Assembly: GCA_963555705.1 (NCBI GenBank)
Contig: OY743170.1
Coordinates: 16,227,596-16,291,595 of the forward strand
DNA: 64,000 nt
Direction: 5' to 3'
Origin: Ligustrum vulgare
Lineage: Eukaryota; Streptophyta; Magnoliopsida; Lamiales; Oleaceae
The notes under the pieces are model-generated. The model made no database searches, was not told the origin of the DNA, and saw only the letters and a list, made by a program, of their open reading frames with translations. Position 1 is the stretch's first letter, and each line of letters begins with the position of its first letter. Both the position numbers and the translations under genes were made by a program. Below, piece by piece: positions 13,774-48,427 of the stretch.

Positions 13774-13863
13774 TTTTTTTTCACTAGAAATTGAATGCAA
13801 TAATAAAAATGAAATGTATTCTTTTGATCTGAGATCTGAGGAGAAATGTAGAGGGAATGTGAC

Positions 13864-25185: not shown

Positions 25186-26902
25186 ATTTCTATAATCTAA
25201 ATATAAACATTCTATCGAAGACTAATAATAAAAAAGGTAAAGCATGGTAAGGACAGATTCCTCGCCTAACAGTCCCTTTAACTAGACAATGCAAGCTTTT
25301 TAGAATAGTGTAATGGTAATATAATCAACACAACCATTAACTAGGTTTGTTTTTAGACAATTAATAGTAAGTCTTCATTTTTTAACGTATTCATTACAAT
25401 TTATAAAAAAATATAATTTTTTAAATTATTTTTTTTAACCACATACATTTCTCCCTCCACTTTTAATATTTTACCTCAAAAATACATATAAACAAATTTA
25501 TAAATGGCTACAGGTTGAAAAAATAAATAAATAACAGAAGTGTAAAAGATGTTTTTTTTTTTTTTTTTTTATATTTGGCCGACTTCATAGTCTCGTGAAC
25601 AGAAGAAATTATAGCACCGATAGGAATGAGTCAGGTCTCATTAAAATTGACAGAGATATAAAGTAACTTTCATTATTCATTGAATAGTTTGAGCCTCTCA
25701 TTCTAAAAAAAAAAATTAATTATCCTGACAAATTACTAAAGTCATGTCCCAGCTTTATTCCGGGCCGGGCCACCTCGTCTAGAACTTTGCCGACAGTATG
25801 GGTATTGCTATCCTGTGTCAAGCGTCATCTTCATCATAGCATCTCCATTGAAAATACATAATTATAATATGTAAATTTATTTTTGCATAATTTTTGTATG
25901 ATCATAATTTCTTTAGGTTAATCTATTTTGAATTTGTATGCGTAAGTACATTTACATATGAACAAACCGATCTAAAGATTTCAAAATTCAATTGACAAAA
26001 ACAAAATATAAAAATGTAGAATTTTCATTTCATCGTAATCTTTGAATCATAAGTTCTCTCTCCTGCATTCCCTTTAAAAAAAAAAAAACAAAAAAAGAAA
26101 CTCAAATTTAATCTACACAATTTCTCAAATCATTTTTTAATCACAATCTCTCTCTAACTTTTAACAAAACATTTTACTAAAAAAAAAAAGTACAAATAAA
26201 TCTCCTCTCCAATTTAAACCTCAGCCGAACACTTTTCTAGAATGACAGCAATTTTTTTGAATGAAGTAGACCCCACAATAAAATGTAAAGTTGTAAAAAC
26301 AAATGTAGATTTCCATCATTTGTAATATTTCAACCGAAATTACATCTCGGGATATCAGCGAATTTGAAAATCTAAAATACTAATTGAAGATGCCTTTATA
26401 GATTTGATGTTGAATATTATAATGGTAAAATAAGAATATAATCTATTGTCACTTTATCATCATGTACGCGTAGAAGATTGGCGTAAACGACAATATTGTT
26501 CATGAATGAATAATATATTATCCAGTTCGTATCCACATTGCAACTATTATTTTAACCTACGAACCCCACCGCTTCCATATTGAAGAGAGCAAGCTATCAT
26601 TATTCAACACTACATAACATTATCTAATGCAACCGACCTCTGAATGAGAATTTCCATGTAAAATAATAAATGGTCGGTCCACATTAAAAATAAAAGGTTA
26701 TAAATAAATTAAATTAGAGACCTAATCCACCAAGAATCCGACAAGTCACAAGATCAGTGAAAAACTCAAAAAAAATAAAAATAAAAATAAAAATGTAAAT
26801 ACGTTACATGACAGAAGATGCAATTAATTTTTTTAAAGAGAAATTGTTCGTAACCATCAAACAAATTCCGATGTCAACTTACAACCCTAAATATATTGTT
26901 TA
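25186..26902. other. no gene recognised; MITE-like debris
   Basis: 25390-25490 and 26090-26240 resemble the arms of the fold-back MULE (CAATTTCTCAAATCATTTTT.. TTTTAATCACA .. ACACATTTTA). Nothing coding was seen. Confidence 0.4.
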
Positions 26903-27127
26903 TGTTATAAAACTATCAAATTCTAAACAAGAATTAGAAAGGAAGAGATGGAGAGAATAGAGAGGAGAATTCTCATTCCATTAGGTGCAAGAAATGTTAC
27001 AAATCAATGCCCTATTTATAGGAATATAAAGTCATTCATACATGATAATTTACAATATAAATTAGGTAGAGATTAGGTAAGAAATTAGGTGAGGAATTAG
27101 GTGAGGATTTATATTTAATTTATAACA
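26903..27127 (-). repeat. left LTR (3' LTR in element sense) of the gene-carrying element
   Basis: TG..CA ended. By eye it differs from the right LTR by about five substitutions and a 12-bp indel (an extra AGGAATTAGGTG-type unit), roughly 2% divergence. CCCTATTTATAGG near 27010-27024 can act as a TATA-like element. Confidence 0.9.
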
Positions 27128-27140
27128 CTCCCCCTTCAAT
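27128..27140 (-). other. polypurine tract
   Basis: On the minus strand TTGAAGGGGGAG lies directly before TGTTATAAA of the LTR. It fixes the element orientation as minus. Confidence 0.8.
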
Positions 27141-27159
27141 GACTTATTGCTCAATTGTC

Positions 27160-27830
27160 TGTCTCGTTAAAACCTTGCTAAGAAAACTCAGTAGGATAAA
27201 ACTTGAGCGAAGGAAAAAGAGTACAGTTGCTCCCCCTGATGTTGGTCATCGTCAATCATTGAGTCTAATGTTCAAGTAGAACAAATCATGTATTGAACTT
27301 TGTAGTTCTGAAGTGTTGAAGTGCTGTCTCGTTAAAACCTTGTTAGAAAAATTCAGTGGGATAAAATATGAACCAAGGAAAAAGAGTACAACCGCTGCCT
27401 CGTTAAAACCTTGTCAGGAAAACCTAGTAGGACAAAATCTGGACGAAGGAAAAAGAGTACAGCATGTTTCTCCCCCTGAAGTGTGCAATTGAGGATTCAT
27501 GAACTTCTCGAACATTGATATCATCTTTCATCTGGAATATAAAAATCTTCTTGTATAGCATTCTTCATAAGATGTTTATAATTTTCTTCATTTGTTGATA
27601 TCATTTCAGTATAACAATGTGTTGCTGAATTATAGCTTGTTGATGGTTATGATAATGCCTCAAAAACCTTGCTAGGAAAATCATGTGGGACAAAACCTCA
27701 GGGAAGGGAAAAAGAGTACATTATTTTCATTAATTTTCATCAATACGCCTCAACTGTTGCCTCATTAAAAACCTTGCTAGGAAAACCCTGTGGGACAAAA
27801 CCTCAGCTAAGGAAAAAAGAGTGCAACGCG
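27160..27830 (-). repeat. five interspersed copies of a roughly 65-bp motif
   Basis: Copies near 27161, 27322, 27393, 27658 and 27752 each run from CTCGTTAAAACCTTG (or CTCATTAAAAACCTTG) through GG(A/G)TAAAA.. to GGAAAAAGAGT. The same motif is common upstream of the polypurine tract in plant Copia elements. Confidence 0.8.
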
Positions 27831-27984
27831 TATTTATTCATTTCATGGAATATCACAAGTATATTGGTGCAATCACGAATCTTTTTATCATATAATTTAT
27901 GATAAGTTTTATAGAAATCGTTCATAACTCATGATGTCATAACATGTTATATTAAGCAATGTTGTACTAATTTATCGATTGCAT

Positions 27985-28170
27985 CTTTCACTTCTGGTGA
28001 ATAATTAAATTTACAATTCACTTCTAGTGAATAATCAAATTTTAGAATTTACTTCTGGTGAATAATCAAATCTAGAATTCACTTCTAGTGAATAATCAAA
28101 TTTTAGAATTCACTTCTGGTGAATGATCAAACATATTCATTTTCATATTCACTTCTAGTGAATAATCAAT
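27985..28170. repeat. tandem array, unit about 30 bp
   Basis: Six or seven copies of CACTTCT(G/A)GTGAATAATCAAA with small spacers. Non-coding. 28171-29164 shows no other recognisable content. Confidence 0.8.
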
Positions 28171-29164
28171 TTCCCAGATGTCATAAATAGTACACTCCAA
28201 TTTCACTTTCAACATATAGTGATACTAATCTGGGTATATTGAATATTTCAATGATTTATACATGTATGTTCTTGCACTTTTTAAACTGCAATTTCTAATT
28301 TGCAGGAGTATAATCAATCATTGAAATATATATCAATTTCGACATATAATCTACAATCATTTCACTTGAAATCCCAACGTACTACGATCAACTGGTACAT
28401 CAAAAAATACTCTCAAAGTACCGAGATGAGAATCATACATTTTGATCTTACTCATTGATATATCAAAGAGCTCAAGCTAGTGATTTAGACTATAGTCTAT
28501 CAACCATATGTCATGCCGTTTTATGAAAAATCTTGCGCGCAACGAGTCGTCTTTTACGACTGTGATATATTTTTCATTTGTACATATAATTACTGGCTTT
28601 ACACATTTAAGCATTTGGACTTCAGGTCCTTGAACAATAATCCCTACATTGGGGTTATATACTTGGCCAAAGTATTATAATTTCATCAACCTCATTTTCA
28701 TAAGAGGGTTGTGAATGTATTCGATTCCATTTCATTTCATCTCAATATAACATATAGAGATCAAGTACATAAATCTCTTATTAACTATGTCTCTTTTACT
28801 CACCAAGAGTATTTAGTCTCAAAAAGGGATCATTTCAATTATTCAAGATACATTTATCTTTGGTATCAATTGTCATTATGCTTCAGGCATAATTACGCTT
28901 CATGCGTGTTTTTCCCATAATGTTCACAAATATTATATTATATCAATCGGCTAAAATGCCGCACATGTCGTCCCTTTAGGGATGTAATTTCAATCATATA
29001 TCTCAGTGCGCTTTGGTGGAGTGTATGCATATCGCACTTTTACAAATCATAAAGCTTCTTGAGCTGATCCCTGTTTGACATAGAATATTGTTGTATGATA
29101 AACAATTTCTGAATAAGTTATTCTCATAGAAAGTAATTTGAAACTTTTGATAATCTAACCGTTT

Positions 29165-29400
29165 ATTATAGAACTTCTGGTTCAATACGGTTTTATTTTA
29201 TTTCTATATATGAATATTTGATTCAATACAATATCGCTAAACTTCTGATTCAATACAATGTATATTTAATTTATGATCTTCTGGTTCATACTATATACAT
29301 ATTTCACTTGTACGTATGAACTTCTGGTTCAACAAGATATTTCACTTGTACATATGTATGAACTTCTGGTTCAATACAGTATTCATTTCTTCAGTACGTA
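29165..29400. repeat. array of AACTTCTGGTTCAATA units
   Basis: At least six irregularly spaced copies of (A/G)AACTTCTGGTTCAATAC. This resembles the CTTCTGG phrase of the arrays at 27985 and 38400, suggesting one origin for the arrays of this element. Confidence 0.7.
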
Positions 29401-29786
29401 TTTCGGTATAGTTCAAATCAGTATACCTTTATTACTTTTAGTATACCGAAAAAATCAGGTACAATATCCAAGGAAATATCTCATGATCTCAATCTTGTCG
29501 CCAAATCTTCCCTTATATCGAAAAAAGTAATGGCACATTATCTCATTGTTCCCACATTTTCAATAATTTATTCCATTATTTCTTGATGGAATTGATATCA
29601 CTGACACGCGGAGCCACCACTCCTTTACGCGTTGAATAATGCATTTAAATAGATTATTTGGGAAGAAGGCTAGATCCATCAAAAATTGATATCATACTTT
29701 CAAATATTCGCAAATATTATTCCAATCTTCCAGTAAATGATTTGAGAAAAATTTATCGAATTAGGCTCTAAAGATTGAGGTTGCTG

Positions 29787-30230
29787 ATGGATCATGGAAT
29801 CCCAGAAGATATTCGCTGGTTGATCGAAGCAAACGTTCGATTAGCTGGTGAATTACCAGATTCATTTTCTAAGCACAAGCCTGGCTTATGTAAGAGTACT
29901 TTTTCAAAGAAGCGAAGAGCAAAAAGATTAAATAGTTGCTACAAATGTACTCGATGGACATGTGATACCCGTTGTAAATCAATAGGATATCCATCCATAA
30001 ATCGAGATGATAAGATAGACTTCATTAAGGGTGGATTGAGTAAGGAGTCATTGGATGATATCCGATTGTCTCTTGAGACGCACCCTAGTGGGTATGTACA
30101 GCGTGAGCTACTATTTTTATGGGCTAAATTTATCAGCGATAAAAAGCGTTATAATCTCAAAAATATAATAGCAAAAGATCCTGTTTGCCAGGCTGTTATA
30201 AACAATGATGTTTTGGCTATTCAGTATTGA
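29787..30230 (+). CDS. cysteine-rich basic ORF carried by the LTR element; viral nucleic-acid-binding-protein-like
   Basis: About 147 residues from the ATG at 29787 (the frame is open from 29772). The order is a short helical start with IPEDIRWLIEANVRLAGELP (about residues 5-24), a strongly basic patch FSKKRRAKR (about 40-48), and a compact cysteine cluster CYKCTRWTCDTRC (C-x2-C-x4-C-x3-C). Then comes GYPSINRDDKIDFIKGG, and a less basic tail of about 70 residues containing VQRELLFLWAKFI. Arginine-rich patch, zinc-finger-like cysteines and a following FI.GG segment are the architecture of the small 3'-proximal nucleic-acid-binding proteins of carlaviruses and related Betaflexiviridae, some of which suppress RNA silencing. 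The cysteine spacing differs from the usual one, and I cannot confirm homology. It is antisense to its LTR element and about 260 bp upstream of the LOG ORF, in the same direction. The alternative is an unknown plant zinc-ribbon protein. No stop interrupts it. Confidence 0.55.
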   Translation: MDHGIPEDIRWLIEANVRLAGELPDSFSKHKPGLCKSTFSKKRRAKRLNSCYKCTRWTCDTRCKSIGYPSINRDDKIDFIKGGLSKESLDDIRLSLETHPSGYVQRELLFLWAKFISDKKRYNLKNIIAKDPVCQAVINNDVLAIQY

Positions 30231-30586
30231 TACAAGGTAAATCATTTGATATATATGTACATATAAAATATTTTTCTGTTTCCTTTCACGAGTTTTGATA
30301 AAGTCTGGTTAAATATATTAAATCACCGAAAGGTGAGTAGGGTGATTTAGTCAAAAGTAAATCTTCACTTTTTCAAAATACGAGTAGTAAATAGTGAAGT
30401 TTTTCAAGTTTAAAAAACCAATGATTTTCACAGTTTCATGCATCCCAAAATATCATTTTCTCATAAGTTTTTCCTTCCTTATTCTTTCAAAGATGGAAGG
30501 ACCAAAACTTCGACAGATCAAAACTATCTGTGTATTTTGTGGATCAAAAGTAGGAAAAGGTTTTGGGTATCTAGAAGCAGCCGTGA

Positions 30587-31464
30587 TGATGCAAACCACG
30601 TAGCAATTGTAGCTACGCAACCCACAAAATATTGAAATCGACCCAAGAACGCCAAGAACCACGATTTATGGATCCAATTAAAATTAATTGAACCAAGTAA
30701 CCAATACAATCACTGGGATATATTGACCTCTTGATCACAAACAATAATAATTCTCACCGAGATTTGAACAAACAAGATTAACTCGCAAGTTCGGATTTTA
30801 TTCAATAAAGAATAAAGGTTGTGAAAGCAAATAGCCTCTCAATTAATATTATCAAAGTTGTCTGTGAATAATGAAAATTACATCCCTATATATAGGGTCA
30901 AAACTAGGTTAAAGAGTTCTAATTAAATAAGGAAACAACTACCTAAAAATAAGGAAATAAAAATAACCTAAAATTCCGCGTATACATGTTTACGGCCGTG
31001 ACTACTTTCCTTACGGCCGTAAACTTGTTTCTGACTCACTCTTACGGCCGTGACATATGACTTACGGCCGTAAGTCCAAAACGTCCAAACTTCAATTTTT
31101 AAGCAGCAACTCCATTACGGCCGTGATATAATCTTTACGGCCGTAAACTGCAATTTCTTCAAAATTCCGTTTTAAGCAGAAGGTTGATTACGGCCGTGAG
31201 GATTTTTGAATTACGGCCGTAATTCTCGAATTTTGGCAATCTTCTTCGACGGCTTGGATGAGGTTGATCCACTCGTCGTTTTGGCTCGGCCCCAACATGA
31301 AACTTGCTTCTTTCGATGACACGAACATTGTTTTGGCCATTGTTTCTTGAACTAACTTGTCCATTGCTTCCTTGGCCCTCTTTGCTTGCAATCGAGTCAT
31401 CGGTCCTCCTTTGATCTTCAACGGATCTTTGTGCGGGCTTGTATCCGTGGTCTGGATCACATCA
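30587..31464 (-). repeat. 3' LTR of the CRM-like element
   Basis: 878 bp, starting TGATGCAAACC and ending CACATCA on the plus strand. It contains the last roughly 90 codons of the polyprotein and, at 30990-31220, the TTACGGCCGT(A/G)A palindrome array. Confidence 0.95.
30990..31220. repeat. array of eight TTACGGCCGT(G/A)A palindromes
   Basis: Four pairs, each a TTACGGCCGTGA followed about 20 bp later by TTACGGCCGTAA, spaced about 50-75 bp apart. The palindrome near 31188 supplies the last three codons and the stop of the polyprotein (TCA CGG CCG TAA on the minus strand). The same array occurs in the other LTR at about 37037-37267 and, in diverged form, in the solo LTR at 57515-57715. Confidence 0.9.
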
Positions 31465-34400
31465 TCCCCTCCCTCTTCGAAAGGATTCGACCTCGAATCT
31501 GTACCTGCATCAAACAGAGATAGATCAGAAACATTAAATGAAGCCGAAACATTATACTCACCAGGAAGGTCTAATTTATAGGCATTGTTGTTGATCCTTT
31601 CAATCACTTGGAACGGACCATCCCCTCGCGGTTGTAACTTTGACTTGCGTTGTTCTGGAAACCGTTCCTTCCTCAAATGTAACCAAACCCAATCACCAGG
31701 TTCAAAAATGATGTCCTTTCTTCCTTTGTTAGCCTGCGAAGCATAATGTTCATTTTTCTTTTCAATCACCAACCTCACCTTGTCGTGGAGTGCTTTAACC
31801 ATCTCAGCTTTTTTCTTGCCATCTAAACTACTACGTTCATTCACAGGTAAAGGAATTAAATCCAATGGTGTTAGCGGATTAAAACCATAAACAATTTCAA
31901 ATGGTGAACACGAAGTAGTAGAATGTATAGCCCTATTATATGCAAATTCAATAAATGGCAAACACTCTTCCCAATTTGTCAAATTTTTATTGATTATGGT
32001 GCGCAATAATTGAATCATTGTCCTATTTACTACCTCGGTCTGTCCATCGGTCTGTGGGTGACAAGTTGTAGAAAAAAGCAATTTTGTTCCTAATTTATTC
32101 CACAAGACTCTCCAAAAATGACTAAGGAATTTAACATCCCTATCCGAGACAATACTTTTAGGCACTCCATGTAAGCGCACGACTTCCCTAAAGAAAATTT
32201 CAGCTATGTTTGTAGCATCGTCAGTTTTGTGGCATGGTATGAAATGTGCCATTTTACTAAAGCGATCTACTACCACAAAAATCGAATCTCGACCCTTCTT
32301 AGTCCTAGGCAATCCCAAAACAAAATCCATAGAGATATCGACCCAAGGTTCACTAGGGACGGGTAAAGGCATATATAATCCATGGGGTTTAATCCTAGAT
32401 TTAGCCTTTTTACAAGTAATGCATCTATTACAAACCCGAACCACATCAATTTTTATTTTAGGCCAATAGAAATGTTCACTTAGGATTTCAATGGTCTTTT
32501 TAACCCCAAAATGACCCATTAAACCTCCACTATGGGCCTCTCTCACAAGTAACTCCCTCATTGAACACCTAGGGACACACAATTTATTTTCTCGAAATAA
32601 ATAATCATCATGTTTAAAGAACCTATCCACAACCCCTTTACCAAAAGACTCATAAATATTAGAAAAGTCCAGGTCATTAGCATACATGTCCTTAATGTAT
32701 TCAAATCCAAGCAATTTCGAATGCAAAGAATTTAAAAGAACATACCTTCGAGACAATGCGTCAGCCACCACATTTTCCTTACCTTGTTTGTACCGGATGA
32801 TATAGGGAAATGTTTCGATGAACTCTACCCACCTTGCATGTCTCTTACTCAGTTTAGCTTGACCCCTCAAATGCTTCAAGGACTCATGATCGGTGTGTAT
32901 CACGAACTCCCGTGGCCACAAGTAATGTTGCCATGTTTCCAAAGCGCGCACAAGTGAGTATAACTCCTTGTCATATGTGGGATAATTAAGTGCAGCCCCT
33001 TTTAGTTTTTCACTAAAATAGGCGATTGGCCTTTGATCCTGCATTAAAACAGCTCCAATGCCTAGCCCTGAGGCATCACATTCAATCTCAAAAGCCTTGT
33101 CAAAGTTAGGAAGTGATAAAACCGGTGCTTTACACAACATATTTTTGATTGTTTCAAATGCATGCTCCTGTTCTACTCCCCACTTAAATCCTACACTTTT
33201 TTTGACAATTTCTGTGAGTGGTGTGGCAATCGTGCTAAAATTTTTAACAAAGCGCCTATAAAAACTAGCCAAGCCATGAAAACTCCTAACCTCAGTTATG
33301 CTTTTAGGTGTTGGCCACTCTTTAATAGCTTTGATTTTCTCTTCATCTACTTCTATCCCTCTAGCACTAACCACATAACCAAGAAATACAACTTTTTCCA
33401 TGCAAAAATCACACTTTTTAAAGTTAGCAAAAAGTTGCTCTTGTCTTAAAACCACAAGCACACACCTAACATGCTCCACATGCTCATTCAAAGTTTTACT
33501 ATATATCAAGATATCATCGAAGTAAACTACAACGAATTTACCTATAAATGCACGTAAAACATGATTCATTAAACGCATAAATGTGCTAGGTGCATTAGTA
33601 AGTCCAAAAGGCATTACTAACCATTCATACAAGCCATACTTAGTTTTAAAAGCAGTTTTCCACTCATCTCCTTCTTTCATTCGAATTTGATGATAACCAC
33701 TCTTAAGGTCAATTTTACTAAATATGCTAGAGCCATGCAATTCATCCAACATATCATCTAACCTAGGAATAGGATGACGATACTTTACCGTTATGTTGTT
33801 GATGGCCCTACAATCAACACACATCCTCCACGTTCCGTCCTTCTTCGGCACAAGTAACACGGGTACGACACATGGGCTCATGCTCTCCCTTATGTACCCC
33901 TTACTCATTAATTCCTCAACTTGCTTTTGAAGCTCCTTCGTCTCCTCGGGATTGCTCCTATAAGCTGGACGGTTTGGAATGACTGCTCCAGGTATAAAAT
34001 CAATTTGATACTCAATACCACGAATGGGTGGCAACCCACTAGGTATATCCTCCGGAAATACATCGTCAAATTCCTGCAATAAAGAAATAGCCAAACTAGG
34101 GAGGGATTTGTTAGTTTCATCAAAGGCAAGGAATGAATCCTTGTACAATAAAAGGACCATTGGTCGTTTTTCCATAAATGTTTTCTTGACTTCACTCCTT
34201 TTTGCGTAGAAACTCATTTTTCTTTCTTTTCTGGCGCTCTTTGCTCCCTCTCCTTTTTCTGAGGTATGTACCCCAACACTCTTTTTTTCTCTCGCCTCTC
34301 CTTTTTCTGGAGTCGTGGCTCCAACTCTCTTTTCCTCTCCTTTTTCTGAGGTCGTGGCCTCAACTCTCTTTCTCTCATTTTCCTTTACTCTTTTTTCTTC

Positions 34401-36059
34401 ATCATTTTTCAGTTTTATTTGATCTTCATACACTTGTGACGGTGTCAATGGTGCAAGTGTAATGGTTTTTCCCCCTTTGGTAAAGCTATACCTATTTTTA
34501 TACCCATCATGCGTGACCTTCCTATCATACTGCCAAGGTCTACCCAACAAAATGTGCCCGGCATGCATAGGTACCACATCACACATAACTTCATCCACAT
34601 AGCTACCAATAGAAAAATTCACCAACACCCTCCTATTCACCTTAATTTCTCCACTATCATTTAACCATTGAAGCCTATAAGGTTTAGGATGTTTTAACAA
34701 AGGTAATCCTAATTTTTCAACAAGTATAGTACTAGCGACGTTAGTGCAACTACCGCCATCAATAATCATACTACATACCTTGTTATTAATGCGACATCGA
34801 GTATGAAATATGTTCTCCCGTTGTTGTTCCAAATCATCCGTGTGGATTTGGGCACTAAGAGCTCGCCTTGCCACTATTAACTCGCCATGCTCCCCGGATA
34901 ACACATCTTCATCCTCACATATTTCCTCCAACGCTGGCATATCGCTATAATCCTCTTCCTCACTATCACTCTCCATAGTTCCATCCTTTCGCAAAAGCAC
35001 CACTCGCCTATTAGGACATTGAGACGCCACATGTCCTCTCCCCAAACATTTGAAGCATTGAATGTCTCTACTCCTAGATGGTTGAGGTTCCCCTTTAGGT
35101 ACAAATTTATTAGCTTGTTCCTCCTTCCCTTTTGGTGCCTCAAACTTCCCTTTTGATGCTTCAAACTTTCCTTTAGAAACAGTCCCTTCTCCTTTACCTT
35201 CCCACTTCGGCTTCCAAGAAGAAATAGTACCCGATTGATACCTTGCTGTCCCCTTCTTCTTCAATTGCTTCTCAACCTTTATAGCCATGTGCAACATATC
35301 CTCCATCTCCAAGTAATGTTGTAGTTCAACCACATTAGCTATATCCTTATTCATCCCATTCAAAAACCGAGCCATCGTAGCCTCCCTATCCTCTTCTACA
35401 TTAGCTCTAATCATCAACAACTCCATCTCCTTGTGATAATCCTCCACACTCTTTGATCCTTGGTATAGACTTTGTAATTTTTGATGAAGCTCCCGATGGT
35501 AATGACTAGGAACGAACCTCTTTCTCATGATAGCCTTTAATTCATCCCAAGTACTAACGGGTCTCTCGCGATTCCTTCTCCTAGAAGTCACCAATTGATC
35601 CCACCAAGTAATAGCGTAATCGGAGAATTCAAGTACAGCTACTTTAACCTTTTTCTCTTCCGAATAAGTGTAGCAATTAAAAATTAATTCCATCTTCTTC
35701 TCCCATTCTAAGTATGCTTCCGGATCACTCCTTCCTTTGAATGACGGAATTGTCATCTTGATGTTGTTCATACTACCATCCATTCTATCGCCACCAAGAT
35801 CTCTATCCCTTCTTCCATGCCTAACTACTCTATTCACAATTGCCCCATCGTCAAAATCACTACCTTCTTCACTCTCATCGACCCCCTCTACTCTACGACC
35901 TTGCCCACCTTGCCTACGGACATTAGGCACTTCCCGAGGTTGTTCAAGCCTTTCTAACCTACCTAACACATCCCCAAACAACCGCTCAAAACGTTGTACC
36001 ATCTCTTCCGTCATGTTGGCTCGATCGTTGTTTTTTGCAGTAGAAGATTGTTCAGACAT
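31188..36059 (-). CDS. Gypsy gag-pol polyprotein, complete
   Basis: About 1,623 residues from MSEQSST (nine codons further upstream are open). Approximate positions: gag domain 110-275; CCHC knuckle [14 protein letters not shown] near 342; aspartic protease with [12 protein letters not shown] near 440 (DGG in place of DSG, as in several Gypsy lineages); reverse transcriptase 690-870 with [11 protein letters not shown] near 854; RNase H 990-1110 with [13 protein letters not shown] and TDHESLKHL; integrase HHCC zinc finger near 1188-1220; catalytic D near 1253 (MDFVLGLP), D near 1313 (SDRDVKF) and E near 1351 (GQTEVV). No chromodomain is visible after the integrase. Instead a basic tail ([19 protein letters not shown]) continues about 90 codons into the 3' LTR. 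A pol frame running into the 3' LTR is a known trait of CRM-clade chromoviruses. No stop or frameshift was found, so the element may be able to move. Confidence 0.95.
31465..31475 (-). other. polypurine tract of the CRM-like element
   Basis: GAGGGAGGGGA on the minus strand directly before the 3' LTR (TGATGTGATCC). It lies inside the pol coding region because the frame continues into the LTR. Confidence 0.85.
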
Positions 36060-36619
36060 CCTAACACTAATGATTATATGCCTCACGTGTATTTCGCTCG
36101 TGTATCACTCAAATTAGGCTTTTACCCTCTATTGATCTCACCTCTCTGCCTTTTTCCACTCAATAGCTTTCACCCCGATTGCTTCAAAGAACGAATCCGA
36201 ACTCAAACAAGTTTAAACTCGATTGCTTCAAATCGAATATAAGTGAGAAGTAATGAATTTGTTGGAAAACTCAAAGAAGACCTTTAGAGAATTAAATTTG
36301 ACTTTATATAGAACTTGACACTTTTTATGGAAACTAGGATTGTTTCAAGAAAATAATTCTTGAAATCAAATATCAAATATTTTAATTGAACTGAGAATTT
36401 TCGTTTTTTTTTTTTTTTTTTTTTTTTTTGAAAATTCAACTACGAGAAAGACGCAACAAATGAAATTTAATTTGGATAACAAACGAAGGAAATAACGACT
36501 ATTGAATTTTTTGTGACACTTTTCTGGATTAAAGACTCAAAGCTGGAAGAACACGAAGAACAAGAATAAGAAACTCAAGAAAACAAAAACAAGATATAAC
36601 CTTGATTTTTGGAGCCTAA

Positions 36620-36631
36620 GCTCTGATACCA
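36620..36631 (-). other. primer-binding site, initiator tRNA-Met
   Basis: TGGTATCAGAGC on the minus strand, two bases inside the 5' LTR boundary at 36634. Confidence 0.95.
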
Positions 36632-36633
36632 GA

Positions 36634-37511
36634 TGATGCAAACCACGTAGCAATTGTAGCTACGCAACCCACAAAATATTGAAATCGACCCAAGAACGCC
36701 AAGAACCACGATTTATGGATCCAATTAAAATTAATTGAACCAAGTAACCAATACAATCACTGGGATATATTGACCTCTTGATCACAAACAATAATAATTC
36801 TCACCGAGATTTGAACAAACAAGATTAACTCGCAAGTTCGGATTTTATTCAATAAACAATAAAGGTTGTGAAAGCAAATAGCCTCTCAATTAATATTATC
36901 AAAGTTGTCTGTGCATAATGAAAATTACATCCCTATATATAGGGTCAAAACTAGGTTAAAGAGTTCTAATTAAATAAGGAAACAACTACCTAAAAATAAG
37001 GAAATAAAAATAACCTAAAATTCCGCGTATACATGTTTACGGCCGTGACTACTTTCCTTACGGCCGTAAACTTGTTTCTGACTCACTCTTACGGCCGTGA
37101 CATATGACTTACGGCCGTAAGTCCAAAACGTCCAAACTTCAATTTTTAAGCAGCAACTCCATTACGGCCGTGATATAATCTTTACGGCCGTAAACTGCAA
37201 TTTCTTCAAAATTCCGTTTTAAGCAGAAGGTTGATTACGGCCGTGAGGATTTTTGAATTACGGCCGTAATTCTCGAATTTTGGCAATCTTCTTCGACGGC
37301 TTGGATGAGGTTGATCCACTCGTCGTTTTGGCTCGGCCCCAACATGAAACTTGCTTCTTTCGATGACACGAACATTGTTTTGGCCATTGTTTCTTGAACT
37401 AACTTGTCCATTGCTTCCTTGGCCCTCTTTGCTTGCAATCGAGTCATCGGTCCTCCTTTGATCTTCAACGGATCTTTGTGCGGGCTTGTATCCGTGGTCT
37501 GGATCACATCA
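36634..37511 (-). repeat. 5' LTR of the CRM-like element
   Basis: 878 bp, nearly identical to 30587-31464. It contains a copy of the C-terminal pol codons (37235-37507) that is not translated from this position. Between here and the gag start the leader (36060-36633) includes a long poly(T) run at 36405-36429. Confidence 0.95.
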
Positions 37512-38089
37512 CGTGAATTTAGGAAAGAAGTTGGGAGATAAATGTATGGATCTAGTATATGGAGGGGGCATCAGTGGATTGATGGGTTGTGTTTCACAAT
37601 CCGCTCAAGCAGAGAAATCAAGAGTGCTAGGTGTTATACCCGTTCCTTTAGTTGATATCGCAGGCAAAATACGGGGGCATGAAGTACAGGCGTTATCTAT
37701 CCATGAACGCATAACTTGCATGTTATATGGTTCTGATGCCTTCATAGCTCTGCCTGGAGGTTTTGGTACTTTAGAAGAAATCTTTATTATTACCTCATGG
37801 GCTCAATTAGATCTCCATACTAAGCCTATTGGGCTTTTAAATATTAACAATTTCTTTGATGGTTTGTTAACATTTCTTGATTATGCTGTGGAATAGGGAT
37901 TCATCTCTCCATTTTCTAGGAGAATCCTTATTTCTGCTCCTACTATCGAGGAACTGCTGGATAAGTTGCAATCATATATTCCAATACAAGATCCAGCAGG
38001 AGTTAAGATAGATTGGTCGCAAGGAAGGGGAATCAAGCGAAAATGGAGTCCAGTTAATGTAAATTTATCTTTGTGAACCCTAGAATAGG

Positions 38090-38660
38090 TGGTGGTAGAG
38101 TACGGAGTATTCTCACTCTTGAGACACACCATAAATTTCTAGGATTTTATCAATGTTTAATCTTGTGTACTTCAAAGATTTAAGATGGTAGAGTACAGAG
38201 TATTCTTACTCTTGAAACACACCTCTTTGAATATTTCTTTATTTCCTCAAAAAATCAGAGGTGGTAAGATTCGGCTACTTCCGAAACACATCTCTAATTT
38301 TGAGGATCATAAATGTTTCCCCTTTTGTATTTTGCATGTATGACTCGTTTATGCTTCTTCAGGAGCAATAATAATAATATCATTTCAATATGTTTAGATG
38401 ATAATTTTTACTTCTTCTGGAATAAATATATACTTCTTCTGGAATACATAAGTGCTCGTGCAATAACTTTTCTGGAGTAAAAATGTACTTCTTCTGGAAT
38501 ACATAAGTGCTCGTGCAAAAACTTTTCCAGATACTTATCATCTACTATTCATCTCATAATACTGATGAGATTATTTTCGCATTAGCCATATCCGTGTTAT
38601 TATGTGATATTATCTTATCATACATCAACAATTTTCTTATTGGATAATTCATTTTTATCT
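38090..38660. repeat. short repeats downstream of the LOG ORF
   Basis: Two or three copies of GGTAGAGTAC(G/A)GAGTATTCT..CACACC-type units (38090-38290), then four copies of ACTTCTTCTGGAATA with CATAAGTGCTCGTGCAA (38405-38530). Non-coding interior of the gene-carrying LTR element. Confidence 0.65.
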
Positions 38661-38799
38661 ATCTTTTCAATACAGATAATGGTAATTTTTGGTACCGTTT
38701 GATAAAATATTTTTATCAACATTCACCAACTTTTTGGTAATGATAACTTCTGGTACCATTAAATGAAATATCAAATAACAATAATATTGTATATATATA

Positions 38800-39120
38800 T
38801 TAACAATAATAATATTAGGATTATACCACCAAGTATATATTAACAATAATATTGTATATATATTAACAATAATAATATTGGGGTTATACCACCAAGTATA
38901 TATGTTGACAACAACTTCTAATATGTTATATACAATATTAATACTGGGGTTATACCACCAAGTATATATTAACAATAATATTGTATATATATTAACTATA
39001 ATAATACTGGGGTTATACCACCAAGTATATATTAACAATAATATTGTATATATATTAACAATAATAATACTGAGGTTATACAACCAAGTATATATGTTAA
39101 CAACAACCTCTAATATGTTA
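38800..39120. repeat. tandem array, unit about 60 bp
   Basis: Five copies of GGGGTTATACCACCAAGTATATATTAACAATAATATTGTATATATATTAAC-like sequence with small differences. The open frames that cover it on both strands only mirror the repeat. Confidence 0.85.
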
Positions 39121-39164
39121 TAATTAACCAACAACTGAGGTGTTTATATGTATTCAATTGATAG

Positions 39165-39286
39165 ACCGACCATATAGGCGATGTCAACATAATGAAATAA
39201 TTAAACCGACCATATAGGCGATGTCAACATAATGAAATAATTAAACCGACCATATAGGCGGTGTCAACATAATGAAATAATTAACT
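39165..39286. repeat. three tandem copies of a 40-bp unit
   Basis: ACCGACCATATAGGCGATGT followed by CAACATAATGAAATAATTAA, three times nearly identical (one A/G change). It lies just inside the 5' end of the gene-carrying element, in its leader. Confidence 0.9.
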
Positions 39287-39579
39287 TTCATGAGTGAGTG
39301 AGTCGTGTCTTTCAGTCAAGGTATTCATAATAGTCCAATCCGTTACGGTGCGTGAATTTGCTTTGAAAATTTCGGGTTACACAATTTCTCCAATTTTTCT
39401 ATGGACTTGGAATTGATTTTCTAATCTATGATGTATAAATGATTTTCTAATACCAAAAACACTAGATTTGAAATATGAAACGTTGATTAATAATAATCTG
39501 GTTTCTGATACAGAGGTTCATCATTTAGATGCAACTGTAGAGCATACTCCCGTCGTATTACTCAATTGGCTAGAGACTT

Positions 39580-39591
39580 GTGCTGATAACG
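39580..39591 (-). other. primer-binding region of the gene-carrying LTR element
   Basis: On the minus strand CGTTATCAGCAC follows the LTR end directly. The phrase is usual at this place in plant Copia elements and may pair with an internal part of a tRNA; the tRNA was not identified. Confidence 0.6.
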
Positions 39592-39804
39592 TGTTATAAA
39601 ACTATCAAAATCTAAACAAGAATTAGAGAGGAAGAGATGGAGAGAATAGAGAGGAGAATTCTCATTCCATTAGGTGTAAGAAATGTTACAAATCAATGCC
39701 CTATTTATAGGGATATAAAGTCATTCATACATGATAATTTACAATATAAATTAGGTAGAGATTAGGTACGAAATTAGGTGAGGATTTATATTTAATTTAT
39801 AACA
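39592..39804 (-). repeat. right LTR (5' LTR in element sense) of the gene-carrying element
   Basis: 213 bp, TG..CA ended and followed by the GTTTA duplication. See the left LTR for the differences. Confidence 0.9.
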
Positions 39805-39895
39805 GTTTACACATTCATCAGTGTTCAAGGTGCTCTGCAGTCAAGAATATCAATACAGGACGATGTCGGTATAAATTGAGATTGACCATCTTAAC

Positions 39896-41954: not shown

Positions 41955-44900
41955 ATGGTTAATACACGTTCTGGACTTCCGCAAGCAAACTTACCTGCCC
42001 ATGATCACACCGTTGGAGGGGAGCAGATACCCCAAGCAACACCACGCGACTAGTCTACGCTGCCAGGAAACCAGACATCACCCCAGCAACCCGCTGCTAA
42101 TACTCAGGCAGCATTGGAAGAGCTCCGTCAGCAAGTTGCTACCCTTACGCAGATGCTCACGCAGCAGAGCCAGCGCAGTACCCCGACCTTCGAGGAGGGG
42201 AACGCTTCAAGGGTCCAGCCACAGAACCACGCCCCTAACATTGGTAGGGCCAGTGCTTCAGGATTGCCTCCGTCGCCACCAAACGTTATGAGTTCAAGAA
42301 CGGTGGCCATGCCCCCTGCCGAGCTCGCCAGAATTATCCAGGATGGAATAGCAGCGGGCATGCGACAAAACACACAGGCCCCAGCAGGGTTCACCTCGAG
42401 CACACCATTCACGACCGATGTTTTGGCCTTTCCCCTACCGGACAGGTTCAAGTTCCCGAGGATAAAAGAATATGATGGTACAACCGATCCAGTGAACCAT
42501 CTTAATATATACACCGACGTCATGAACTTGCAAGTTGCCCCCGATCAGGTTATGTGCAAGGCTTTCCCCCAAACTCTGACAAGTGCCGCTAGAGATTGGT
42601 TCTCTACTCTTGAACCAAACTCCATTCCAACATTCACAGACCTTGCTAACAAATTTTCGGCCTTCTTTGCAAGTAGTAAGCGTATAAAGAAGACAGCTGC
42701 TTCGCTCATGAGACTCACCCAGGGACAGAATGAGACATTGCGCGAATTCATGACCAGGTTCAACGCAGAAAGGTTAAAAGTTCCCGACCTTCATATTTCT
42801 GCTGCTGTATCAGCTCTTACTCAGGCTGTGAGGTGTGAGGCCTTCAAGATGTCTCTATCAAAAACACCGCCAAAATCTGTAACTGACCTTCTCACTCGGG
42901 CTGAGAAGTACGTGAATATGGAGGAAGCTATGAATTCGAAGAGGAGCGATACAACCCCCGAAAATTCTGAACGGAAGGATAGTAGAAACGATCGAAAGAG
43001 ACAGCGTGAGGAGAGTCCGAGGCAGGGGCGTGATCGAGATGATCGGGGAAAGGGAAGGGCTGAGCAGCCGCCTCCCTTCACTCCACTGAATGCCCCTCGG
43101 GCTGACATTCTTATGGAAATCAAAGATATGAAGGAATTGAAGTGGCCATCCAGAATCAGGTCCCCGCCAGAGAAGCGCGACAAGAGCAAGTACTGTGATT
43201 TTCATCGTGATCATGGGCACACTACAGAGACTTGCTATGCCTTACAGCGAGAGATAGAAGCATTGATAAAAAGGGGTTTCCTGAAAACGTATGTGGGGAA
43301 TGACAAACGACCGAAGCACAATCATGAGCATGATCATCCACCAAGGAATAACAAGCCAACAGCAGTAACAAACAACGTTATCATAGGTGGAACAGCTTCG
43401 GGAGGAGATTCGCAAAATGGGCGCAAAGCATATGCTAGGCAGTCTTCAGGGACAGAGCCTGATTGCCACCCTGACATCACCTTTGGCTCTGATGATATGG
43501 AAGGAGTGTTCACTCCTCACGACGATGCTATGGTAGTCACAACAATCATAGCTAACTACGAGGTGAGGAGGATACTGGTAGACAATGGAAGTGCATCTAA
43601 TGTCTTATCACATGAAGCTTTCATTAAAATGGGAATATCAACAAGCAACTTAAGGTCTATCAGGACTCCCTTGCAGGGATTTGGGGGAAGTATCATCATG
43701 CCCGAAGGCACCACCGAACTCCCTTTGACATTGGGGACAGACCCCAAGCAGATAACGGAGATCACAATGTTTCATGTTGTAAGGGCTCCAATGAGATACA
43801 ACGCAATACTTGGCCGACCACTGTTGAACAGCATCAAAGCAATAGTGTCAACATTCCATCTTGCCATGAAATTCCCAACAACTGAAGGTGTGGGGGTTGT
43901 TCGGGGAGACCAGACAGTAGCAAGGCAGTGTTATGTTACTAGTGTCAAGAACCTCCCAGCAGAGGTCGCGCAGGTGGATGAGATGGAGCCCGACCTCGAG
44001 CACAGAGGGAGGCTATCGCCAGTTGAGGAATTGTTAGAGATCGAGGTCGGGCCAGGGAAAAATGTCATCATTGGTCGGGATCTCGACGATGGTCTGAAAA
44101 TTGTGCTCACACGGTGTTTGAGAGAAAACATCGATGTATTCGCCTGGAGTGTTGAGGACATGCCTGGAATTGAGCCCAAGATTGCCGCGCACAGTTTAAA
44201 TGTGAATCCCGACGCACGGCCCGTTAAACAACGGAAGAGACAGTTTGCTCCTGATCGTCGAATTGTGATTCAAGAAGAGATTGGTAAACTCTTAAAGGCA
44301 GGATTCATCAGGGAGGTTCATTACCCAGACTGGCTTGCAAACGTGGTCTTGGTAAAAAAGAGCAATAGCAAGTGGCGAGTTTGTGTGGACTATACAGACC
44401 TGAATAAAGCATGCCCCAAGGACAGCTATCCATTACCACGAATTGAAAACCTCGTGGACAGCACCTCGGGCCATAGGATGTACAGCTTCCTTGACGCATT
44501 TTCAGGTTATCACCAAATGCCAATGGCAGAGGATGATCAGGAAAAAACATCGTTCATGGTCGATTCAACGATCTATTGTTATAAAGTCATGCCCTTTGGC
44601 CTAAAGAATGCTGGGGCAACTTACCAAAGGTTGATAAACAAGGTGTTTGCAGGATTAATTGGGAAAAACGTTGAGGCATATGTTGATGACATGATCGTCA
44701 AGAGCACAGAAGTCGACAGACATGTTTAGGACCTCGAGGAAGTGTTCTTTACGCTCAGGAAATACAAGATGAAATTAAATCCAGCTAAATGCGTGTTTGG
44801 GGTATCATCGGGAAAGTTCTTGGGCTTCATGATCACTCATCGGGGTATAGAGGCTAACCCCGATAAAATACAAGCTCTAGTTTCAATGGAGTCCCCCAAA

Positions 44901-47208
44901 AGTAGAAAAGATGTTCAGAAGCTGATAGGTCGAGTAGCGGCACTTAACAGGTTCATGTCAAGAGCAGCCGACAAGTGTTTTCCTTTTTTCAGAATATTAA
45001 GGGGAAATAAGGGCTTCGAATGGAATGAAGAGTGTGAGCAGGCGCTGCAACATCTGAAGGAATCCCTAGCGATGCCCCCTGTGCTTACAAAACCAAGTCC
45101 AGGAGATGTGCTGTCCCTATACTTGGCTGTCTCTCAGAATGCAGTAAGCGCAGTGCTCGTCAAGGAGGTTGGTCGGGCCCAGCAGCCCATATATTATGTC
45201 AGCAAAGTCCTCCTTGACGCCGAAACCCGTTACACCATTGCAGAGCAATTGGCATTGGCACTAGTTGTAGCTGCAAGGAAGTTCAGGCAGTACTTCCAAT
45301 CACATACAATCTTGGTACTTACAAATCAGCCCTTGAAGCATATACTCCAGAAGCCAGATGTCTCCGGGAGATTGCTAAAATGGGCCATTGAACTTGGCGA
45401 GTTTGATATTGAGTTCAAACCCCGACCATCGATAAAGGCACAGGCCTTGGCGGACTTTATTGCGGGGGCCAGTGGATAGCCCGAGCATATCCGAGCGCTA
45501 TTGGAAAATTTTTGTGGATGGTGCATCCACTCCTCGGGCTCGGGTGCAGGGGTCATTCTTATAAGCCTGGACCAACAGGTTGAAATACAGTGCGCTTTGA
45601 GATTTGAGTTTGAAACAAAAAAACAACGAAGCAGAATATGAAGCTGTCATCATTGGGCTTGAGGTCGCTCATGGCCTTGAACTTGATCATGTAAAGGTAT
45701 ACAGTGATTCCCAGATTGTGGTTGGGCAGATCGATGGCACATTCGAGAAGAAAGAGGAGAAGATGAGTCTATACTGCTTGCGTGTTCATGACCTGCAGAG
45801 AATGTTCGGAAGTTGTGAGATCTTGAAAATACCAAGATCAGAAAACATCAATGCCGATTCACTCTCCAAACTTGTGTTCATGAGTGTTGATAACCTGGAC
45901 AGAACTGTTCATATGAAATACGTAACGCACCCCAGTATTCACCCGAGGCCTGAAATTATGGACATCGATCATGAGCCATCGTGGATGGACCCCATCATTA
46001 AGTTTTTAACTGAAGGAAGTCTCCCCGATGACCAGAGGGAGGCCAGGACCGTGAAGCAAAGAGCAGCAAGGTACTGCATGATAAACGGAGTTCTTTTCAG
46101 AAGGAGCTTTACCTTGCCATATCTCAGGTGTCTCAAATCTTCTGAAGCTGCTCAAGCTCTTGCAGAAGTACATGAAGGCATGTGTGGAAATCACCAGGGC
46201 GCTAGGTCATTAGCCCACAGACTCCTCAGATACGAATACTATTGGCCAACCATGAGGACAGATGCTGTAAATTATGTGAAGAAGTGTGACAAGTGTCAGA
46301 GGCACGGAAATATCATGCACCGACCAGCCGAAGATCTAACTCCTATTCCGTGTCTAGGACCGTTTGAACAGTGGGGGATCGATATCTTGGGTCCTTTTCC
46401 CATTGCACGGGGACAGTTGAAGTTCATAGCTGTAGCAGTTGAATATTTCACTAAGTGGGTGGAGGCTGAACCCCTAGCAACAATTTCAGAGCCCAAACTA
46501 AGATCCTTCGTTTGGAAATCTATCATATGCAGATTCGGCATAGCAAGAGTGTTGATAACGGACAATGGCAGGCAGTTTGATAATACACAGTTCAAAAATT
46601 TCTGCGCAAGGCTTCATATTGATCACCGTCAGACGTCAGTTGCGCACCCCCAGAGTAATGGGCTCGCAGAAGTGACGAACAGGGTAATACTCCAAGACCT
46701 TCGCACGAGGATAGGAGACGCACGAGGCTCTTGGCCCGAGGAACTACCAGCCATACTTTGGTCTTATAGGACCACACACCGAACAGCTACCGGGGAAACT
46801 CCTTTTATGCTTGCCTTCGGGATAGAGGCGACAATCCCCGTTGAAGTAGGCTTGCCCAGTTACAGGCGTCTTTTCCCGAGTATAGAAGAAAGGGAATGTA
46901 CTGACGGACACCTTGACTTGCTTGAAGAAGTTTGTGAGCAGGCAAGCACAAGGATAACATCATACCAGAATAGGACGGCCAAGTACTTCAACAGCAAGGT
47001 CACACCAAGAAAGTTTAGGGCAGGAGATCTTGTGTTGAGGAAGGCAGAAGCAGCTGGTCATCCACCAGGGAAGCTCGGGCAAGTTTGGGAAGGGCCCTAC
47101 GAAGTTACATGACAGACCCGAGGAGGATCGTACAGTCTTCGGGATCTCAAAGGAACGCCATTGCCAAGACCTTGGAATGCAGATAACCTCAAAATCTACT
47201 ACAAGTAG
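41955..47208 (+). pseudogene. Tat-lineage gag-pol polyprotein, interrupted
   Basis: Starts MVNTRSGLP at 41955. Gag spans about 42420-42960. A CCHC-like CDFHRDHGHTTETC lies at about 43195, the protease (VDNGSASNVLS) near 43580, and reverse transcriptase at 44290-44960 with AYVDDMIVKS near 44690. RNase H follows to about 45470, then a second RNase H (WKIFVDGAS near 45510; NNEAEYEAVIIGLEVA near 45625). The integrase finger (YYWPTMRTD.. KCDKCQ) is near 46240, and the core has DILGPFP, DNGRQFDN and SNGLAE. Breaks are a TAG at 42051, a TAG at 44727, at least two frame changes between 45475 and 45604, and a TGA at 47110. The remaining frame closes at 47208. Everything else is well conserved, so the decay is recent. 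Confidence 0.92.
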
Positions 47209-47345
47209 CAGAATCAAACTTCGGAGTTTATTCCTTTACTGTGTTTTATTTTTTAATTTTTGTTAAGGCCTGCGCGCCAACTTTTATTTTTCTAAGAATA
47301 TATCTGAATAAAAGGTACTTCTCACCAATTATGTTGTTCACCTCC

Positions 47346-47630
47346 GAAAGCCTTCCCCACGAGGAAGCACACAAAGTCTTGCCCACAAGCAAGCACTCGA
47401 AAGCCTTCCCCACGAGGAAGTACACAAAGTCTTGCCCACGAGCAAGCACTCGAAAGCCTTCCCCACGAGGAAGCACAAAAAGTCTTGCCCACGAGCAAGC
47501 ACTCGAAAGCCTTCCCCACGAGGAAGCACGCAAAGTCTTGCCCACGAGCAAGCACTCGAAAGCCTTCCCCACGAGGAAACACACCAAGTCTTGCCCACGA
47601 GCAAGCACTCGAAAGCCTTCCCCACGGGGA
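47346..47630 (+). repeat. tandem array, 53-bp unit, about 5.5 copies
   Basis: CGAAAGCCTTCCCCACGAGG followed by AAGCACACAAAGTCTTGCCC and ACGAGCAAGCACT, repeated at 53-bp steps. Because 53 is not a multiple of 3, all frames stay open for a while and give spurious ORFs on both strands. Confidence 0.95.
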
Positions 47631-47721
47631 AGCCTGCCAATCTTGGCCCGCGAGCTGGGAATTCAAGTACTAACCCCGAGCATCACCAACAGCACTTCCA
47701 TCGTAATTACGATGTTTAATG

Positions 47722-48110
47722 ATCGGGGTAACAAAAACGCTCGGGGTTATTACTTAATGTTCGCTAAATAATCCTTTGCTCGGGGTTATTACTTAATGTT
47801 CGCTAAATAATCATTTGCTCGGGGTTATTACTTAATGTTCGCAAAATAATCCTTGATCGGGGTTAGTGCTTAATGTTCATTAATAATCCTTTGCTCGGGG
47901 TTATTGCTTAATGTTCATTAACAATCCTTTGCTCGGGGTTATTACTTGGCGTTCATTAATAATCCTTTGCTCGGGGTTATTACTTGGCATTCATTAATGA
48001 TCCTTTTCTCGGGGTTATTACTTAATGTTTGCTAAATAATCCTTTGCTCGGGGTTGTTACTTAATGTTCGCTAATAATCCAAGCTCGGGGTTAGTGCTTA
48101 ACGGTCATTA
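47722..48110 (+). repeat. tandem array, unit about 45-55 bp, about 8 copies
   Basis: Copies of TTGCTCGGGGTTATTACTTA then ATGTTCGCTAAATAATCC, with small length changes. Degenerate copies continue to about 48300. It lies between pol and the antisense gene. Confidence 0.9.
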
Positions 48111-48427
48111 ATAATCCGCGATCGTGTTTGCTACGTAATGTTCATTGTTGATTCCCATGATCGAGGTTAGCGCATTATTAACCCACTGGTCATACATACA
48201 CATAACATTTATCAATCCCCCACTCGGGGTTATTACTTATGTTTACTATTAACCCCTCTGCTCAAGGAACGTACATAGTAATCATTATTGATCCCGTGAT
48301 CGGGGTTCAGACATTATCTTAAATTAATTGATGCTCGTACAAATACTGCTCGTACCCTTGATGTTCAAAATGCAAAATATTTCAATTGTGATTATGTTCG
48401 GTACAAAAAGGGGTGGGGATACAAAAT

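Follow-up and report, generated by a model that had tools for sequence, protein, structure and literature searches.

The window analysed here, a 64,000-nucleotide stretch of Ligustrum vulgare contig OY743170.1, contains a dead copy of a non-autonomous long terminal repeat (LTR) retrotransposon family that has a high copy number and was recently mobile. Antisense to its LTRs, the family carries two genes, one for a cysteine-rich, zinc-finger nucleic-acid-binding protein of carlavirus type that matches the Pfam domain Viral_NABP (hereafter NABP) and one for an enzyme of the LOG type. Judged by their codon substitutions, both genes are under purifying selection. We consider it possible, with a probability of roughly 0.45, that this family, likely of the Bianca type, carries the two selected antisense genes as a nuclear module that conditions the host.

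The family in the Ligustrum vulgare genome

The 1.385-Gb genome was searched with the left LTR of the window element alone, and the best-scored places were taken. All 40 scored places matched the query (1676 candidates at a first look). Twenty stretches were then drawn from the LTR matches by LTR similarity, and 17 of these have two LTRs. NABP and LOG are present in all 17 two-LTR copies, in the same order and antisense to the LTRs, and the stretches with one LTR match each (L047, L049 and L050) also have both genes. A perfect 5-bp target site duplication (TSD) flanks 15 of the 17 copies; the TSD of L033 has one mismatch and that of L041 was not called. The 12-base core of the primer-binding site (PBS) is exact in 16/17 copies, with a variant in L031. 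No open reading frame (ORF) of gag-pol size was found in any of the 17 copies, as judged by length with no domain search run, and the longest frame on the strand of the LTR transcript is 162 aa.

The original prediction, made from the window, named the same LTRs with both ORFs at other loci as support for a real gene-carrying family, and this is what the 17 copies show. It took a separate later insertion of the cargo, with its own target duplication, as a refuting outcome. This is excluded because the pair sits at the same place in copies at different loci, most of them with a perfect TSD of their own.

Intact copies encode an NABP of 181 aa and a LOG of 217 aa. NABP is intact in 13 of the 17 copies, LOG in 12 and both genes in nine. 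The LTR pair is free of substitutions in 6/17 copies (four pairs are identical, while those of L031 and L033 differ in length), and the maximum in any pair is three substitutions. With so few or no LTR substitutions, the family must have moved recently.

The pair extends to other subfamilies. A protein search with the related NABP P0002 yielded 8643 candidates; all 150 places that were scored matched and 148 lacked a stop, and since the scoring takes the best places first these figures are a biased lower bound. Two loci from this search, L056 and L057, belong to another subfamily. Their LTRs measure 199 bp, with 99.5% identity within each pair, and they have the same primer site and open frames for both NABP and LOG. 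Equal-scoring NABP proteins of this type occur at dozens of loci, which suggests a very recent amplification (two places were fetched). L052 represents an intermediate subfamily that has both genes and LTRs that match the window LTR only partly. A far more divergent NABP-LOG pair, L051, lies in the same genome and is flanked by direct repeats. We left it out of the count of LTR elements, its termini, TSD and PBS not being made out. Upstream of its NABP and on the same strand there is a 264-aa open frame (5277-6068 of L051) with no confident Pfam match. Finally, a 23-base pattern that joins the LTR end to the primer site has 2364 exact places in the genome, which may include other families, versus 0 for the reversed control.

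Selection on the two genes

The strength of selection was estimated between L052 and L045, which represent two subfamilies, from the ratio of non-synonymous to synonymous substitution rates (dN/dS). NABP shows 22.0 synonymous and 20.0 non-synonymous changes, giving a dN/dS of 0.22 (95% 0.11-0.43), and LOG shows 29.5 and 23.5 changes, giving again 0.22 (95% 0.12-0.38). For neither gene did any of 2000 bootstraps reach 1. The alignment has 0 gap columns in the 546 + 654 coding bases versus 1379 over about 4449 internal non-coding bases. The divergent L051 pair, with a dS of 1.2-1.3, gave similar ratios (NABP 0.23, LOG 0.26). The dN/dS values, which agree with the purifying selection that the original prediction anticipated for a real gene-carrying family, rule out that the ORFs are open by chance.

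The pair is also found in Orobanche. Among the 120 matches listed of 241 found with an Orobanche query, 20 are predicted proteins that contain both the NABP and the LOG domain, and all of these fused proteins among the matches listed are from Orobanche (O. hederae, O. minor and O. gracilis). We read them as two neighbouring ORFs that were merged by gene prediction.

These observations bear on the possibility that both genes are functionless passengers, which entered the element when template switching joined foreign transcripts to it. Plant LTR elements have frequently been reported to take up host sequences (PMC13317346), and NABP or LOG is broken in 8/17 copies. However, passengers would hardly be expected to show the low dN/dS of both genes and the zero coding indels between two subfamilies, or to recur as the same pair in the divergent L051 family and in Orobanche, and we find this explanation hardly credible. 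Mere pick-up of cDNAs, which the original prediction had allowed for, is likewise unlikely because of the purifying selection and the presence of the pair in Orobanche.

The LOG protein

An AlphaFold model of P0121, which is 94% identical to the LOG of L032, has a predicted local distance difference test score (pLDDT) of 85, with values below 50 for residues 202-217. Its best match in the PDB is At2g37210 (2a33; TMt 0.94), with which it shares 50% identity. The protein thus resembles plant LOG enzymes in its fold, and the resemblance extends to the arginine and the PGGxGTxxE motif. Of the 120 best LOG relatives, 110 retain both Arg96, which we take to be the catalytic residue of LOG, and PGGxGTxxE, as do 67 of the 75 that have the LxLxL tail described below and also L045. 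The LOG of the main family is predicted to release cytokinin from its riboside monophosphate.

The retroelement LOG differs from plant LOG enzymes in being encoded by an uninterrupted single ORF inside a retrotransposon, and most of its best relatives add a C-terminal tail with a basic stretch and LxLxL. This motif is exactly C-terminal in 75/120 of these relatives, versus 12.4/75 obtained with shuffled tails, and a basic pair stands just upstream of the tail in 75/75 of the LxLxL LOGs. The LxLxL (EAR-type) motif may recruit the TOPLESS corepressor, and the basic run before the tail is presumably a nuclear signal.

For comparison, 18 host LOGs treated as canonical were picked from 45 others by name, partly for the absence of the tail. 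In a 116-row tree with a midpoint root and a bootstrap that was not fully settled, these 18 form one group (100/100), and 80 tail-bearing rows lie across the branch, so that the retroelement LOGs are separate from the canonical ones. Thirteen fused, short or odd rows and one row of less than 190 aa had been dropped, and the non-canonical rows had been cut to 195 residues, which excludes most of the tail. LOG relatives were also found on many Reevesia contigs and in a 327-member Pterospermum cluster.

The NABP protein

The NABP of L045 scores over both Pfam cut-offs, with 37.4 bits for Viral_NABP (cut-off 23) and 24.7 bits for Carla_C4 (cut-off 20.9). The shortened cysteine-rich ORF of the window still matches Viral_NABP (5.8e-7, 30.1 bits) and falls under the cut-off for Carla_C4. 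In addition to these domain matches, the protein shares with carlavirus-type cysteine-rich proteins a basic run followed by CX2CX4CX3C. Among the best 120 of 150 relatives with E <=0.01, the basic run is found in 119 and CX2CX4CX3C in 96, and 57 have a length of 178-188 aa. Unlike the carlavirus-type proteins, the retroelement protein is encoded in plant chromosomes and has conserved regions beyond the stretch matched by Pfam. The matches listed come from Orobanche, Populus, Xanthoceras, Acer and further ENA/JGI contigs. No viral NABP is among them and no NABP relatives were found in the scanned viral contigs; a PDB sequence search gave a single match, with E 0.68. According to PMC12172455, suppression of silencing is a common activity of carlavirus cysteine-rich proteins, and one protein of this kind, CVB p12, induces hyperplasia by acting as a transcription factor.

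The GTDB contig scan gave a 3.3-kb contig, L055, with a frame for a Ty3/gypsy integrase (Pfam rve and Integrase_H2C2). An intact NABP (1736-2344) comes directly after it in the sense orientation, and LOG is absent from the 1 kb that is left of the contig. Its title assigns it to a Nomurabacteria metagenome-assembled genome, but a bacterial origin was rejected in view of the Ty3/gypsy integrase and the plant-type NABP, and we read it as plant contamination. If L055 is no assembly chimera, NABP would also exist as an ORF located after pol in a Ty3/gypsy element.

Two alternatives can be weighed at this point. Selection might act on NABP alone, as a silencing suppressor, with LOG as a secondary partner. 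The occurrence of NABP in L055, where the last 1 kb lacks LOG, fits this idea, and so does the silencing suppression by carlavirus NABPs (PMC12172455), but the dN/dS of LOG equals that of NABP and both genes are present in 17/17 copies, and we judge it unlikely. Alternatively, NABP-LOG could be a domesticated host gene pair, maintained by selection at the host level and repeatedly picked up by retroelements. This would suit the two or more contexts in which NABP is met: the copia-type element of the present family, where it is antisense, and L055, where it follows a Ty3/gypsy integrase in the sense direction. Against it, most of the 150 NABP places that were scored represent repeat copies of nearly equal score, no specific search for a single-copy host locus having been made, and the tail-bearing LOGs are split from the 18 canonical ones at 100/100. 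We therefore regard a domesticated pair as very unlikely.

Lineage, mobilisation and related elements

The PBS of the element is probably of the half tRNA-Ile type, as judged against a presumed tRNA-Ile sequence. PMC6317226 reports primer sites that match a half tRNA-Ile and its edited anticodon only for Bianca copia elements, and the family likely belongs to this lineage of Ty1/copia. The same genome also contains a copia gag-pol relative, now broken, that shares the PBS and has a similar leader. It is represented by the stretch L058-L059, which was picked for a variant of the primer site. Its LTR end and leader match L045 at 72-80% over short stretches, and its sense strand encodes copia gag (PF14223) and RVT_2, with stops interrupting the frame. 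The family of the window differs from Bianca in having no gag-pol and hence no reverse transcriptase that could be used for phylogenetic placement. We infer that copia gag-pol proteins of the L058-L059 type may mobilise it in trans.

Large retrotransposon derivatives (LARDs) are non-coding by definition. They and other non-autonomous LTR elements resemble the present family in having LTRs, a PBS, a polypurine tract (PPT) and no gag-pol; the window family differs from them by retaining two constrained genes.

The closest known parallel to the gene arrangement is formed by antisense additional ORFs (aORFs), such as those of Grande (gene23), RIRE2, Retand (TRP28) and PvRetro13, which PMC7264820 and PMC11963269 describe as conserved, present in most copies and having relatives in other species. 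In these elements, as here, conserved ORFs lie antisense to the LTR transcript and on its 3' side, and in the present family they do so in 17/17 copies. The described aORFs sit between pol and the 3' LTR, whereas no gag-pol was seen here, although some Retand clusters also are without typical coding domains according to the same sources. Furthermore, the 2020 review states that antisense aORFs downstream of pol show no clear similarity to known proteins (PMC7264820), while the genes found here match Viral_NABP and LOG. We accordingly file the family as an antisense-gene-bearing LTR element with two novelties: no pol is seen, and the genes are of identifiable viral and hormone type. No description of the NABP-LOG pair was found in the titles and abstract starts of the open-licence PMC literature; in their available parts, PMC7264820, PMC11963269, PMC13317346, PMC3726574 and PMC6317226 treat antisense, extra or captured genes other than NABP-LOG.

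A proposed role for the gene pair

The original prediction suggested that the cargo may act on the growth of the host or on its silencing. If the pair serves as a host-conditioning module, an antisense transcript would give rise to the NABP and LOG proteins, both of which would act in the nucleus. NABP would bind DNA or RNA and, in the fashion of carlavirus NABPs, weaken silencing or alter host transcription. Wherever the element is active, LOG would raise the level of active cytokinin; a TOPLESS-type corepressor may also be recruited by those LOGs that end in an LxLxL tail. As an outcome, dividing and poorly silenced cells would be favoured, and new copies would reach the next generation. A more tentative extension, which we think somewhat unlikely, is that a selfish lineage found throughout the eudicots makes a hormone-and-transcription module from NABP and a nuclear, corepressor-recruiting LxLxL LOG, and that the resulting host cells, cytokinin-rich, dividing and poorly silenced, lead it to the germ line, as a counterpart of the Agrobacterium strategy.

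Several observations weigh against host conditioning. Some concern the estimates of selection. The LOG of L052 has two in-frame stops, and some of the changes counted in it therefore reflect decay. Between L052 and L045, nucleotide identity is 0.92 in coding and 0.87-0.89 in non-coding sequence (0.94 in some blocks), which is little separation. The NABP of the window compared with L045 gives a dN/dS of 0.57, with 294/2000 bootstraps of 1 or more, and the within-family value for NABP is 0.48 (190 pairs). For LOG, the window copy gives 0.31 (1/2000 bootstraps of 1 or more) and the within-family comparison also 0.31 (190 pairs). Weaker values within the family and for the window copy can be attributed to the decay that is expected after insertion.

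Other points concern the proteins and the distribution of the pair. The predicted model of NABP is poor (pLDDT 68, predicted template modelling score 0.33). The LOG tail of the main family, VNVNLSL, is degenerate and failed the strict LxLxL pattern. LxLxL occurs in 0/18 of the LOGs treated as canonical, but this is no independent control because absence of the tail was partly a selection criterion; the grouping in the tree is one. The NABP without LOG in L055 means that the pair is not obligatory, and LTRs around the NABP-LOG pair were observed in the Ligustrum vulgare genome only.

A further difficulty lies in the active site. In the LOG of L051 the active-site residues are changed (Ser, PGD, Gln), and in Orobanche LOGs of the P0241, P0243 and P0264 type the Arg and the PGG or GT residues are changed, as is the YGGG loop, with open frames in both cases. 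With such changes in two lineages, cytokinin release is not universally required and cannot account for everything that LOG does; in those lineages the protein may get by as a scaffold or through its tail.

The persistence of frame and tail in these two lineages in spite of a changed active site would be explained if the pair regulates the element itself. NABP would then bind DNA or RNA of the element, and the LOG-fold protein would serve for the most part as a corepressor or scaffold bearing a tail, which tunes transcription from the LTRs, with enzymatic release of cytokinin being incidental. Such a role has been suggested for antisense proteins like Grande GENE23 and HTLV HBZ. The basic pair in front of all 75 LxLxL tails points the same way, and antisense accessory proteins, some of them nuclear, are known in gag-pol elements (PMC7264820 and PMC11963269). 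On the other hand, Arg and PGGxGTxxE, conserved in 110/120 relatives and in 67/75 of those with LxLxL, would be superfluous in a protein that is purely a scaffold, and the strict LxLxL is lost in the family of the window. We consider self-regulation possible though rather doubtful.

Architecture of the window element

The features of the window copy are listed in Table 1. The original prediction of a single minus-oriented element held up, with the LTR pair, GTTTA on both flanks, the PPT, the PBS and a minus-strand promoter all in agreement. The LTRs have TG..CA ends (TGTTATA at the start and TATAACA at the finish) and differ by 5 mismatches over 213 aligned positions plus a difference in length. 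The promoter motif CCCTATAAATAGGG of the LTR lies on the minus strand, and a TATA motif is present at about 39699-39712 (minus) in the 5' LTR. A misread orientation of the cargo was ruled out, because promoter, PPT and PBS are all on the minus strand.

The prediction also had the two cargo ORFs as the only protein-coding content. Two plus-strand ORFs antisense to the LTRs, with a gap of 262 bp between the cysteine-rich ORF and LOG, are indeed present, but a nested Ty3/gypsy element brings a gag-pol ORF of 1632 aa. Similarly, the identities of the cargo as NABP and LOG were confirmed by Pfam, but both genes are broken in this copy. The NABP gene has lost its start codon and acquired an early in-frame stop, the 151-aa ORF being the remnant of a 181-aa gene, and LOG has two lesions, the split by the nested element and an in-frame TAG. 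With both cargo genes broken, the window copy is dead.

Table 1. Features of the LTR element in the window (positions in the 64,000-nucleotide stretch).
Feature	Position	Strand	Basis
TSD GTTTA, left flank	26898..26902	.	sequence
3' LTR (left side of window)	26903..27127	-	LTR comparison
PPT, minus-strand GAAGGGGGAG	27128..27137	-	sequence
Internal region from 3' LTR to NABP, treated as non-coding; repeats of CTCGTTAAAACCTTG and CTTCTGGTGAAT types	27138..29684	.	
NABP gene, broken; surviving ORF 29775-30230 (151 aa)	29685..30230	+	Pfam Viral_NABP
LOG, part 1 (MEGPKLRQ...)	30493..30586	+	
Nested Ty3/gypsy element within LOG	30587..37511	-	LTRs 30587-31464 and 36634-37511
TSD CGTGA of nested element	30582-30586 and 37512-37516		
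gag-pol ORF of nested element, 1632 aa; not belonging to host element	31188..36086	-	
LOG, part 2; in-frame TAG at 37894; C-terminal tail KRKWSPVNVNLSL	37512..38076	+	Pfam Lysine_decarbox 1.6e-26
Internal region from LOG to primer site, treated as non-coding; tandem repeats	38077..39572	.	
PBS, CGTTATCAGCAC; minus-strand region CGTTATCAGCACAAGTCTC; likely half tRNA-Ile (Bianca) type	~39573-39591	-	
5' LTR (right side of window)	39592..39804	-	LTR comparison
TSD GTTTA, right flank	39805..39809	.	sequence

The nested Ty3/gypsy element is very young, as its 878-bp LTRs differ by 2 mismatches. Its gag-pol frame is open and extends into its own 3' LTR, and the palindrome ACGGCCGT occurs eight times in each LTR. 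Elsewhere in the window, a Ty3/gypsy gag-RT frame (+) is followed by a Transposase_28 ORF at 49354-50187 (-). This region (42114-50190) may be a Retand-type element with an antisense TRP28 ORF like those described in PMC11963269. A repetitive ORF rich in His, Glu, Lys and Gly at 13321-13797 (-) looks dehydrin-like by eye and has no Pfam match. ARAGORN found zero tRNA genes in the window.

Implications

In the present family both antisense genes have recognisable relatives with a testable biochemistry, namely viral proteins of the silencing-suppressor type and cytokinin-activating enzymes. NABP ties a gene family of RNA viruses to retroelements. The LOG relatives carry a warning for annotation, since some annotated LOG-like plant genes are likely to be transposon genes. 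If the proposed role in host conditioning is true, retrotransposons can bear accessory genes that act on hormone signalling.

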